Part shown: positions 8,802 to 11,094 of the stretch, one piece after another
Position numbering within the stretch: the stretch's first letter is position 1
How the letters are laid out: the number at the start of each line of letters is the position of its first letter
Origin: Aliiroseovarius halocynthiae
GTDB lineage: Bacteria; Pseudomonadota; Alphaproteobacteria; Rhodobacterales; Rhodobacteraceae
Reading direction: 5' to 3'
DNA: 64,000 nt
Assembly (NCBI RefSeq): GCF_007004645.1
Contig: NZ_ML660019.1
Span: 1,660,671 to 1,724,670 of the forward strand
Position numbers and translations under genes: made by a program
The notes under the pieces: generated by a model
Database searches by the model: none
The model's input: only the letters and a program-made list of their open reading frames with translations
What the model was told of the DNA's origin: nothing

Positions 8802-9167
8802 ATGACCGATACAGCCGACACCCGGATCGAAGGGGACCCCCTGATCAAACCGTCCAGCGTAGAGCACCCTCTTTATGACGCGGTGGTCGAAGCTTGCCGC
8901 ACGGTTTATGACCCTGAGATCCCGGTCAACATCTTCGACCTTGGTCTTGTCTATACGATCGAGATCAACGACCAGAACGAGGTTGATCTGATCATGACCC
9001 TGACCGCGCCCGGCTGCCCTGTAGCTGGTGAAATGCCCGGCTGGCTGGTGGAAGCGGTCGAACCGGTCGCGGGCATCAAACAGGTGAATGTCGAACTGAC
9101 ATGGGAGCCACCCTGGGGGATGGAGATGATGTCAGACGAAGCGCGGCTGGAACTGGGCTTCATGTAG
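8802..9167 (+). CDS. sufT: SUF system Fe-S assembly protein, MIP18/DUF59 family
   Basis: 121 residues. The DUF59 domain spans about residues 22-115, with the conserved DPEIPVNIFDLGLVY (38-51) and TAPGCPVAGEMP, which holds the conserved Cys72. SufT-like proteins assist maturation of Fe-S proteins. In many alphaproteobacteria this gene neighbours the A-type carrier gene; here sufA lies 1.5 kb downstream, after two inserted genes. The upstream 255 bases hold the promoter region but no operator I could identify. Confidence 0.88.
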   Translation: MTDTADTRIEGDPLIKPSSVEHPLYDAVVEACRTVYDPEIPVNIFDLGLVYTIEINDQNEVDLIMTLTAPGCPVAGEMPGWLVEAVEPVAGIKQVNVELTWEPPWGMEMMSDEARLELGFM

Positions 9168-9210: not shown

Positions 9211-9318
9211 GCAACCCAATTGGGTTGCGTTTTGCATTTCGCAACCCTTTTTGGATGCATAGCGCCCAACGCAACCCAAAAAGGTTGCAATTAACCATTC
9301 GCAACCTATTATGGGTGC
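9211..9318 (+). promoter_or_regulatory. Array of four 18-bp palindromic operators at exact 30-bp spacing
   Basis: Four sites begin at 9211, 9241, 9271 and 9301. Each is GCAACC, six bases, then GGNTGC. Site 1 (9211-9228) is a perfect 18-bp palindrome, site 3 has perfect 6-bp arms, and sites 2 and 4 have one mismatch in the right arm. The left arm GCAACC is invariant, and the 12-bp spacers differ in sequence. The centre-to-centre distance of 30 bp is close to three helical turns, so the sites face one side of the DNA. Site 4 ends 3 bases before the ATG of the SatD-like gene. Inferred role: cooperative repression, probably by that protein's own HTH. Confidence 0.85.
9285..9312 (+). promoter_or_regulatory. 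Predicted sigma-70-type promoter inside the operator array
   Basis: TTGCAA (9285-9290) and TATTAT (9307-9312), separated by 16 bases, match the -35 and -10 consensus. The -35 overlaps the right arm of operator 3 and the -10 lies within operator 4, so a bound regulator would block polymerase. Predicted initiation near 9319 would leave about 3 bases before the ATG at 9322, suggesting a leaderless or nearly leaderless mRNA. No Shine-Dalgarno sequence is visible. Predicted by eye only. Confidence 0.45.
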
Positions 9319-9321
9319 ACT

Positions 9322-9972
9322 ATGGATGACACCTTAACGAATATCGCTGTCCTGACCGGAGACATCATCGGTTCGACCCAAATGTCGCCCGAAGATCTGG
9401 AACGCGCGTTCGACGCACTGACCACCTCGGCCGAGGTACAAGCCGAATGGCATGGAGAGAGCCTCCACTTCACCCGCCAGCGGGGGGATGGATGGCAGGT
9501 CCGGCTTGCGCGCCCGGAATTGGCGTTGCGGTCTGCGCTCGCCTTCAGGGCCGCGCTGCGCTGTGAGGGGAAAGAGTTTTCGACCTATATGGGACTGGCC
9601 ACCGGGCACGCAAAACCGCATATTTCTGGAGTTGACCTAAACACTTCCACCGAGCAGGTTTTCGTTGGAAGCGGTCATCAGCTAGATTGTATGAAATTGA
9701 TCTACGCTAATATCGAAATGCTTCACGCTACAAACGGCAGCGTTGGCGCAGCATTCGTTTTGGCCGATCGAATCTCGCAAAGCTGGACCCCTGCCCAAGC
9801 CGCAGCCATGCTCCCAATGTTGGCACCGGGAAACTCGCCAAGCCATTCAGAGGTTGCACGCGCTTTGGGAAAGTCGCGTCAAGCCGTCGCAAAGGCACTT
9901 GAAGGGGCTGGTTACGACGCTGTTTGGATGGCCCTAGGAAACATCGAAAACGAAGAGGCTCAAGATGATTGA
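9322..9972 (+). CDS. SatD-like protein: nucleotidyl-cyclase-like domain plus C-terminal HTH
   Basis: 216 residues. The N-terminal 150 residues carry VLTGDIIGST (Asp14) and RGDGWQ (Asp56), then YMGLATG and VFVGSGHQLD. Order and spacing resemble class III nucleotidyl cyclases, whose two metal-binding Asp are about 44 residues apart (42 here), and also the GDII...GDEFQ pattern of SatD proteins. The C-terminus has a helix-turn-helix (HSEVARALGKSRQAVAKALEGAG, about 175-197). Its ATG lies 3 bases after operator 4, and its end overlaps the DUF3307 gene by 8 bases. I infer an autoregulated regulator of the DUF3307 protein; the ligand is unknown. SatD assignment is by motif memory only. Confidence 0.7.
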   Translation: MDDTLTNIAVLTGDIIGSTQMSPEDLERAFDALTTSAEVQAEWHGESLHFTRQRGDGWQVRLARPELALRSALAFRAALRCEGKEFSTYMGLATGHAKPHISGVDLNTSTEQVFVGSGHQLDCMKLIYANIEMLHATNGSVGAAFVLADRISQSWTPAQAAAMLPMLAPGNSPSHSEVARALGKSRQAVAKALEGAGYDAVWMALGNIENEEAQDD

Positions 9973-10672
9973 AACCTTCACAGCCCTCCTCTTTGCCCAT
10001 GTGCTGGCTGATTTTGTCTTTCAGACCAAATGGATAAATGACAACAAAGCGCGACCTCAGGTGTTGCTGCTTCACGCGGTGATCGTTCTCTTCACTGCGC
10101 AACTTGCGCTGGGCATCTATGACGCACCGCAACTCTTGATGCTGGCGCTGGTTCATCTGATCATCGACGCGTTGAAGCAATGGGGTGATTTTCGCAAACT
10201 GTCAGGGTTTCTTTGGGACCAAGCCGCGCATCTTCTGTCGCTTCTCGCCCTTGCAGCCTATGCCCCTACCCTTTGGGGCGCGTGGCCGGACGTCGCCCTG
10301 CCCCTTATGGCACTGACCACAGGAGCCATCATAGCGACACGCGCAGGGGGCTTTGCCGTCGGGCTGCTCATGCAGCCACACTCCATGCGCATCCGCAACA
10401 ATGGGCTGAAGGGCGGCGGCTGGACCATCGGCATCCTCGAACGCGGACTGGTCTTCGTTCTGATCCTGGCAGATCTGCCGCTTGGGGTCGGCTTTCTGGT
10501 CGCTGCCAAATCCATCCTCCGCTTTGGCACCGCCAGTCGCGATCAACGCACTGCCGAATATGTGATCATTGGCACGCTGGCCAGCTTCGGATGGGCCATC
10601 CTTGCAGGTTTCGCCACCCAAGGTCTTCTTTCCCGACTCCCCACGCTTGAGATTACCGCCCTGCTTCCCTAA
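9965..10672 (+). CDS. DUF3307 family integral membrane protein
   Basis: 235 residues with about six or seven hydrophobic segments. The N-terminal membrane segment carries HVLADFVFQ (His12, Asp16, Gln20), a signature I associate with DUF3307; polar residues recur in LVHLIIDALKQWGD. The start overlaps the SatD-like gene by 8 bases, which implies translational coupling. SatD-like and DUF3307 genes pair in unrelated bacteria, from my recollection of genome neighbourhoods; no biochemical function is known to me. The membrane His/Asp residues could suit metal or proton handling, but that is conjecture. Confidence 0.75.
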   Translation: MIETFTALLFAHVLADFVFQTKWINDNKARPQVLLLHAVIVLFTAQLALGIYDAPQLLMLALVHLIIDALKQWGDFRKLSGFLWDQAAHLLSLLALAAYAPTLWGAWPDVALPLMALTTGAIIATRAGGFAVGLLMQPHSMRIRNNGLKGGGWTIGILERGLVFVLILADLPLGVGFLVAAKSILRFGTASRDQRTAEYVIIGTLASFGWAILAGFATQGLLSRLPTLEITALLP

Positions 10673-10701: not shown

Positions 10702-11094
10702 ATGTTCGGCATTCCCGGCAAATCTCCCATCACCATGACCCCAGCGGCCGAAGCACAAATCGCCCGGCTGATGGAGAAGGACGGCCATAAAGGCCTACGC
10801 ATTGGCGTCAAGAAAGGCGGCTGTGCGGGGATGGAGTACACGATGGACTATGTCGATCAGGTCGACACTCATGACGAAGTTGTCGAGCAGGGCAACGCCC
10901 GTGTGATGATCGCCCCTATGGCGCAGATGTTCCTGTTCGGGACCGAGATCGACTATGAAATCTCGCTTTTGGAAAGTGGATTCAAGTTCAACAACCCCAA
11001 CGTGACCGAAGCCTGCGGCTGTGGTGAATCGATCAAGTTCGACGACACGCTCTCGACTGCGCCAACGGATCTGAGCGCCCCTCCCAAGTTCTAA
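10702..11094 (+). CDS. sufA: A-type Fe-S carrier, HesB/IscA/SufA family
   Basis: 130 residues, with the three conserved carrier cysteines Cys41 (GGCAGMEY), Cys105 and Cys107 (ACGCGES). It accepts an Fe-S cluster from the SUF scaffold and passes it to apo-proteins in the cytosol. AAGGAG lies about 22 bases upstream and AAGGA about 9 bases before the ATG. It follows the DUF3307 gene by 29 bases on the same strand and may be co-transcribed with it. The C-terminal tail of about 18 residues is longer than in ErpA-type homologues (compare 55891-56220). Confidence 0.9.
   Translation: MFGIPGKSPITMTPAAEAQIARLMEKDGHKGLRIGVKKGGCAGMEYTMDYVDQVDTHDEVVEQGNARVMIAPMAQMFLFGTEIDYEISLLESGFKFNNPNVTEACGCGESIKFDDTLSTAPTDLSAPPKF

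Follow-up and report, generated by a model that had tools for sequence, protein, structure and literature searches.

The described system closest in architecture to the locus analysed here is the hipBA promoter, in which, according to the review PMC3920265, the small HTH autorepressor HipB binds four operators (TATCC-N8-GGATA) cooperatively in front of its own two-gene operon. The YefM-YoeB system, as outlined in the same review, is likewise controlled by an autorepressor at adjacent palindromes that overlap the promoter and whose spacing affects cooperative binding, but it has two palindromes 12 bp apart and its regulator carries no canonical DNA-binding motif (PMC3920265). In streptococci, the sat genes are located with ffh and ylxM in the sat operon, and S. 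pyogenes satD, present in 178 of 249 genomes, is reported to be essential in the tested strains and the only accessory gene to reach the top quarter of the essentiality range (PMC12077213 for the operon, PMC11323703 for both). In the open-access literature, with subscription journals mostly outside it, "SatD" and "DUF3307" occurred together in no paper, "DUF3307" appeared in one paper, as a table entry, and searches for cyclase-HTH repressors and operator arrays returned no paper.

The window, that is, the whole 64-kb stretch of Aliiroseovarius halocynthiae DNA analysed, carries four palindromic sites in front of a gene pair encoding a SatD-like protein and a DUF3307 membrane protein. Four operators in the promoter of the regulator's own two-gene operon are what it shares with hipBA, as that system is described in PMC3920265. 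This likeness is functional only, since HipB is Cro-like and HipA is a kinase, whereas the pair here combines a cyclase-fold regulator with a membrane partner. What appears to be new, judged at the sequence level, is a putative autoregulator with a cyclase fold, an operator array with a fixed spacing of 28-30 bp in two bacterial classes and a readable code between residues and bases. The most probable explanation (about 0.86) is that the SatD-like protein binds the four palindromes as its own operators and thereby represses the cassette that it forms with DUF3307.

The four-site array and its predicted promoter

The sites and the surrounding features are as follows.

8802..9167, + strand: FeS_assembly_P gene (PF01883, 8.7e-18), constant neighbour flanking the cassette and outside it
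9211..9228, no strand: candidate operator site 1, perfect palindrome GCAACC-N6-GGTTGC
9241..9258, no strand: candidate operator site 2, one mismatch in the right arm
9271..9288, no strand: candidate operator site 3, perfect palindrome, right arm overlapping the predicted -35
9285..9290, + strand: predicted -35 hexamer TTGCAA, 4/6 to consensus, 16 bp before the -10; prediction only
9301..9318, no strand: candidate operator site 4, one right-arm mismatch, 6-bp centre being the predicted -10
9307..9312, + strand: predicted -10 hexamer TATTAT, 5/6 to consensus, ending 9 nt before the ATG
9322..9972, + strand: SatD-like protein of 216 aa and presumed autorepressor, with an N-domain of class III-cyclase fold and an HTH at the C-terminus
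9877..9906, + strand: recognition helix, residues 186-195 (from the model helix 186-195 and covariation), holding R186, Q187 and K191
9965..10672, + strand: DUF3307 membrane protein, 235 aa (PF11750, 7e-15), 8-bp ORF overlap with the SatD-like ORF
10702..11094, + strand: SufA/HesB-like gene (PF01521, 1.5e-21), constant neighbour flanking the cassette and outside it

The 18-bp sites start at 9211, 9241, 9271 and 9301, with a period of exactly 30 bp. All four match GCAACC-N6-GGNTGC, the 12-bp spacers between them are unlike each other, and site 4 ends three bases before the ATG at 9322. The first-pass annotation had described the array, its period, its common pattern, its differing spacers and its distance from the start codon in these terms, and the observation of a four-site array in front of the SatD-like gene is confirmed; its term "palindromes" fits sites 1 and 3 exactly and sites 2 and 4 with one right-arm mismatch each. 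No other exact forward-strand match occurs in the window, and the genome (3.39 Mb, 29 contigs) adds two, both single. When one mismatch to GCAACC-N6-GGTTGC was allowed, the genome gave nine forward matches, four of them the array sites, against 14 for a reversed control pattern, so that single sites elsewhere are at chance level; the genome contains only this one array. The palindrome-chain score of the array is 13, whereas the top score among 1500 dinucleotide shuffles was 8 and no other tile of the window exceeded 7.

The annotation had also placed the sites on one face of the DNA, which did not hold. A period of 30 bp corresponds to 2.86 turns at 10.5 bp per turn, and the spacing in orthologous loci is 28-30 bp, mostly 29 or 28, not 31.5. 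Since 28-30 bp spans 2.7-2.9 turns, successive sites should be turned around the helix instead of lying on one face, and with 28-29 bp dominating among orthologues the same-face phasing was dropped. Its exclusion of a CRISPR array was right: the repeats are 18-bp palindromes with varying centres, 12-bp spacers and a predicted promoter inside, not near-identical repeats separated by long unique spacers.

The overlap of sites 3 and 4 with the predicted promoter points to repression. Across 69 family arrays (see below), the last site matched a -10 hexamer better than the other sites did (mean best match 3.86 vs 3.14 of 6, p ~1e-6). With 9 nt between the predicted -10 and the ATG, the mRNA should have almost no leader, and RNA leader hairpins were rejected on the same distance. 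Alternatively, the SatD-like protein might bind the array as an activator or dual regulator, its upstream sites recruiting RNA polymerase, as the position of sites 1 and 2 upstream of the predicted -35 would allow, together with orthologous arrays some of which end 30-50 bp before the start codon. This is unlikely, as a dimer bound at sites 3 and 4 of the window, on the predicted -35 and -10, should block the polymerase.

Arrays, arm letters and the recognition helix across loci

A sample of 394 genomes of the window's family, window genome included, was searched with a profile of the SatD-like protein, and 92 genomes matched at E <= 0.001. The 84 best matches that were full-length or nearly so (E <= 3.3e-47) were kept, and eight weak and partial ones were dropped. 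A second set consisted of 32 loci outside the class, taken to be from Gammaproteobacteria, comprising 30 of 33 strong matches in one order and two other loci. DUF3307 follows the SatD-like gene in 81 of the 84 family loci by tblastn and, by profile, in 113 of 116 loci of both sets; the window's own partner matches PF11750 with 55.6 bits, above the curated cut-off of 23 bits. The two ORFs overlap in 45/82 family loci and 15/31 others, starts being chosen automatically. In the DNA of the 84 family loci, some of them cut by contig ends, SufA was found in 78 and FeS_P in 76.

The chain search was blind to the protein, took its register from an A at position 7 from the dyad and accepted links of 28-30 bp, with the threshold for an array set above the 99th percentile of shuffles. 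Arrays of two to four palindromes 28-30 bp apart were found in 69 of the 84 family loci and 28 of the 32 loci outside the class. By the same score, only 45/3575 and 2/1108 control tiles away from the array passed in the same family and outside-class loci, respectively. When links of any length from 22 to 41 bp were allowed, 112 of 121 family intervals still fell at 28, 29 or 30 bp (19, 74 and 19), as did 47 of 56 outside the class (37, 9 and 1). The arm words vary across loci and include GCAACC, GCAAGC, TCAAGC, GAAAGC, GTAAC, TATACG and TTTAGCC. The search upstream of SatD-like genes that the first-pass annotation proposed thus bore out conserved arrays (69/84), but neither one arm word nor a fixed 30-bp spacing. 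Rows with K191 mostly have 30-bp spacing (9/12) and rows without it mostly 29 bp (49/55).

No array above threshold was detected in 15 of the 84 family loci. Eight of these (L011, L019, L020, L063, L074, L078, L092, L103) have QQ at residues 186-187, a pair seen in only one row with an array, and four others below the threshold (L015, L051, L058, L082) show a weak site pair 29 bp apart. In 22 family loci without the SatD-like gene, no 28-30-bp array follows FeS_P; three of them lay above the 95th percentile of an earlier score. In one same-genus genome, ~70 bp separate the two Fe-S genes, and both cassette and array are missing. Judging by these co-occurrence counts and by the same-genus genome that lacks all three, array, SatD-like gene and DUF3307 are present or absent together as one cassette, apart from some exceptions.

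Among the exceptions, five of the 394 genomes (L277, L278, L279, L280, L281) carry a long divergent DUF3307 (>100 bits) without a SatD-like match; in four of the five it comes after FeS_P, once with an intervening gene, and no array was seen there by eye. L105 keeps the SatD-like gene without DUF3307, has SufA next and shows one weak site only. In L282 (1812-3073), a divergent 275-aa SatD-like ORF precedes an ORF whose match to DUF3307 is limited to the C-terminal half. Short DUF3307-like ORFs are also present in many family genomes; their match is confined to roughly the first 100 profile positions, and some are read with stops.

The arm letters follow the residues of the SatD-like recognition helix, as seen in the alignment of 67 family rows (the 69 with arrays, excluding L106 and L108, in which the HTH frame appears broken). 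Position 9, counted from the dyad, is G in 55/55 rows with R186, whereas it is T where this residue is P, T, A or K (11/11) and A where it is Q (1/1). C at position 5 is found in 12/12 rows with K191 and in 1/55 without, and C at position 8 in 61/64 rows with Q187 and 0/3 without. In a scan of 1205 residue-position pairs, R186 with position 9 ranked first (z 17.5) and explained all of the base entropy, and K191 with position 5 came fifth by z (11.8) and second by the fraction of entropy explained (84%). Several residues beyond the helix correlate with the words too, residue 89 with position 5 being second by z, which shared descent would lead one to expect. In a tree from which the HTH was left out, R186 changes five times and K191 arises twice, both times with C at position 5; the second K191 (L071) lies in the other of two tree halves of support 100 and also has GCAACC. 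Well-supported branches yield only 2, 2 and 1 independent pairs, none opposite, too few for a sign test.

The rules, fixed beforehand, also applied to held-out loci, which are relatives of the first set. A named-genome scan gave 80 loci, of which 17 were removed because a DNA criterion marked them as copies from the first set, and 55 of the remaining 63 had arrays. Position 9 was predicted correctly in 52/55 (R to G 46/46, others to T 6/9) against 49/55 for always guessing G, and position 5 in 52/55 (K to C 35/35, others to G 17/20) against 37/55 for always guessing C; Fisher tests, which ignore kinship, gave 2.9e-6 and 1.3e-12, respectively. L220, one of the misses, combines Arg at 191 with C. 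Among the 28 outside-class loci as scored, position 9 gave R-G in 12/15, Q-A in 5/8 and T/I-T in 5/5, and position 5 gave K/R191-C in 16/19 and E-G in 4/7. Six loci (L159, L165, L166, L167, L173, L179) break the rules, probably through another dyad of the same repeat being taken.

These results bear on whether the sites belong to another host regulator, for example one of Fe-S assembly, which the location of the cassette between FeS_assembly_P and SufA-like genes in most family loci might suggest. This reading was rejected as very unlikely: arrays are absent where the SatD-like gene is absent, the arm words change with the SatD-like helix, arrays are present outside the class beside different neighbours, and the whole genome of A. 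halocynthiae has a single array. That the repeats are no operators at all, being instead tandem duplications, RNA leader hairpins, a CRISPR-like array or mobile-element ends, is scarcely credible despite their regular period and inverted repeats, as the arms are kept while the spacers differ, the 28-30-bp spacing stays constant while the words change, the words track a protein helix, and the array lies upstream of the presumed transcript, with the ATG 9 nt after the predicted -10.

In six loci examined outside the class, the neighbours differ from the Fe-S genes and are mostly housekeeping genes (judged by eye from the first residues); one of the six also has recombinase- and ParB-like ORFs. 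A SatD-like and DUF3307 pair is also present on a Sphingomonas insulae plasmid (L266, NZ_CP048421.1, 2483-3996), adjoining genes annotated as TIR domain, Pycsar effector and adenylate/guanylate cyclase; the upstream stretches tested on this plasmid contained no array. Apart from this copy beside a Pycsar system, a plain defence-island reading found no support, the family site being mostly between Fe-S genes and the six outside-class loci having mostly housekeeping neighbours. PADLOC returned one weak match for the SatD-like protein (DpdC, E 0.014), which was discounted, and none for DUF3307, and the 101 pattern matches in viral contigs included no relative.

Predicted folds and the proposed mechanism

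The AlphaFold2 model of the SatD-like protein (pLDDT 96.3) supports a class III nucleotidyl cyclase fold for its N-domain. At E <= 0.001 the PDB fold search gave 34 matches, every one described as an adenylyl or guanylyl cyclase, with TM-scores on the query of 0.36-0.44 because the HTH is not covered by the cyclase structures. By sequence profile, the cyclase Ma1120 matched at 3.6e-4 (profile positions 6-94), and zinc-transport repressors with an HTH matched the C-terminus (E 0.0014). The predicted N-domain is like the class III cyclases Cya2 (2w01) and Ma1120 (4wpa) in fold and in both metal-site Asp motifs, D14 and D56 each being kept in 81/82 family and 32/32 outside-class rows. It differs from them in being joined directly to an HTH; the transition-state Asn/Arg pair, located by motif, is not evident (position 115 varies, and 119 is Arg in 51/82).

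The name "SatD" fits the window protein only loosely, through distant relatives. The protein itself has no match to Pfam SatD (PF16264) at E <= 1, the curated cut-off being 29 bits, and an NCBIfam search gave no match, whereas its distant outside-class relatives L124 (33.8 bits) and L169 (32.8 bits) exceed the PF16264 cut-off and provide the link to SatD; 6 of 86 aligned members match PF16264 at E <= 0.1. The DUF3307 model consists of nine helices (pLDDT 94.6) with conserved polar residues, and a PDB fold search with it gave no match at E <= 0.001.

In the proposed mechanism, the C-terminal HTH would read the arms on both sides of each dyad, with R186 pairing with G at position 9, Q187 with C at 8 and K191 with C at 5. 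The predicted promoter of the SatD-like and DUF3307 cassette would be covered by two to four dimers 28-30 bp apart, so the usual effect should be autorepression. The constant spacing would serve contact between adjacent dimers, and the N-terminal cyclase-fold domain is likely a dimerization or sensor module, possibly for a ligand. The first-pass annotation had regarded the SatD-like protein as the repressor at a cooperative array. Its multi-site operator does track the protein's own helix, and we infer repression and cooperativity from the promoter overlap and the fixed spacing, respectively.

A possible toxin-antitoxin role and the meaning of the pairing

The cassette may, more tentatively, be a toxin-antitoxin-like module, in which a former class III cyclase acting as autorepressor and antitoxin would occupy a phased array evolving together with its recognition helix and would restrain a toxic DUF3307 membrane protein until a nucleotide signal arrives. 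Such a self-contained module would be of a new kind. We consider this possible but doubtful. The layout is that of such modules, with a two-gene operon, the regulator first and the ORFs close or overlapping. Against it, a toxin should never be kept without its antitoxin, and 5 of 394 genomes have a long DUF3307 without a SatD-like gene; L105, which keeps the SatD-like gene without DUF3307, is a further count against it. The streptococcal gene, reported as essential yet accessory (PMC11323703), behaves as expected of a gene guarding against a toxic partner, and the toxin-antitoxin reading, if true, would explain why.

In summary, the analysis offers a testable role for two protein families that co-occur in at least two bacterial classes. 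The 152 putative repressor-operator pairs (69 + 28 + 55) form a natural series linking individual helix residues to individual operator bases, which makes the code open to swap experiments. An autoregulator that binds DNA and is built around a cyclase fold would raise the question of which nucleotide is sensed. The satD phenotype described in PMC11323703 becomes testable as that of a repressor or antitoxin.
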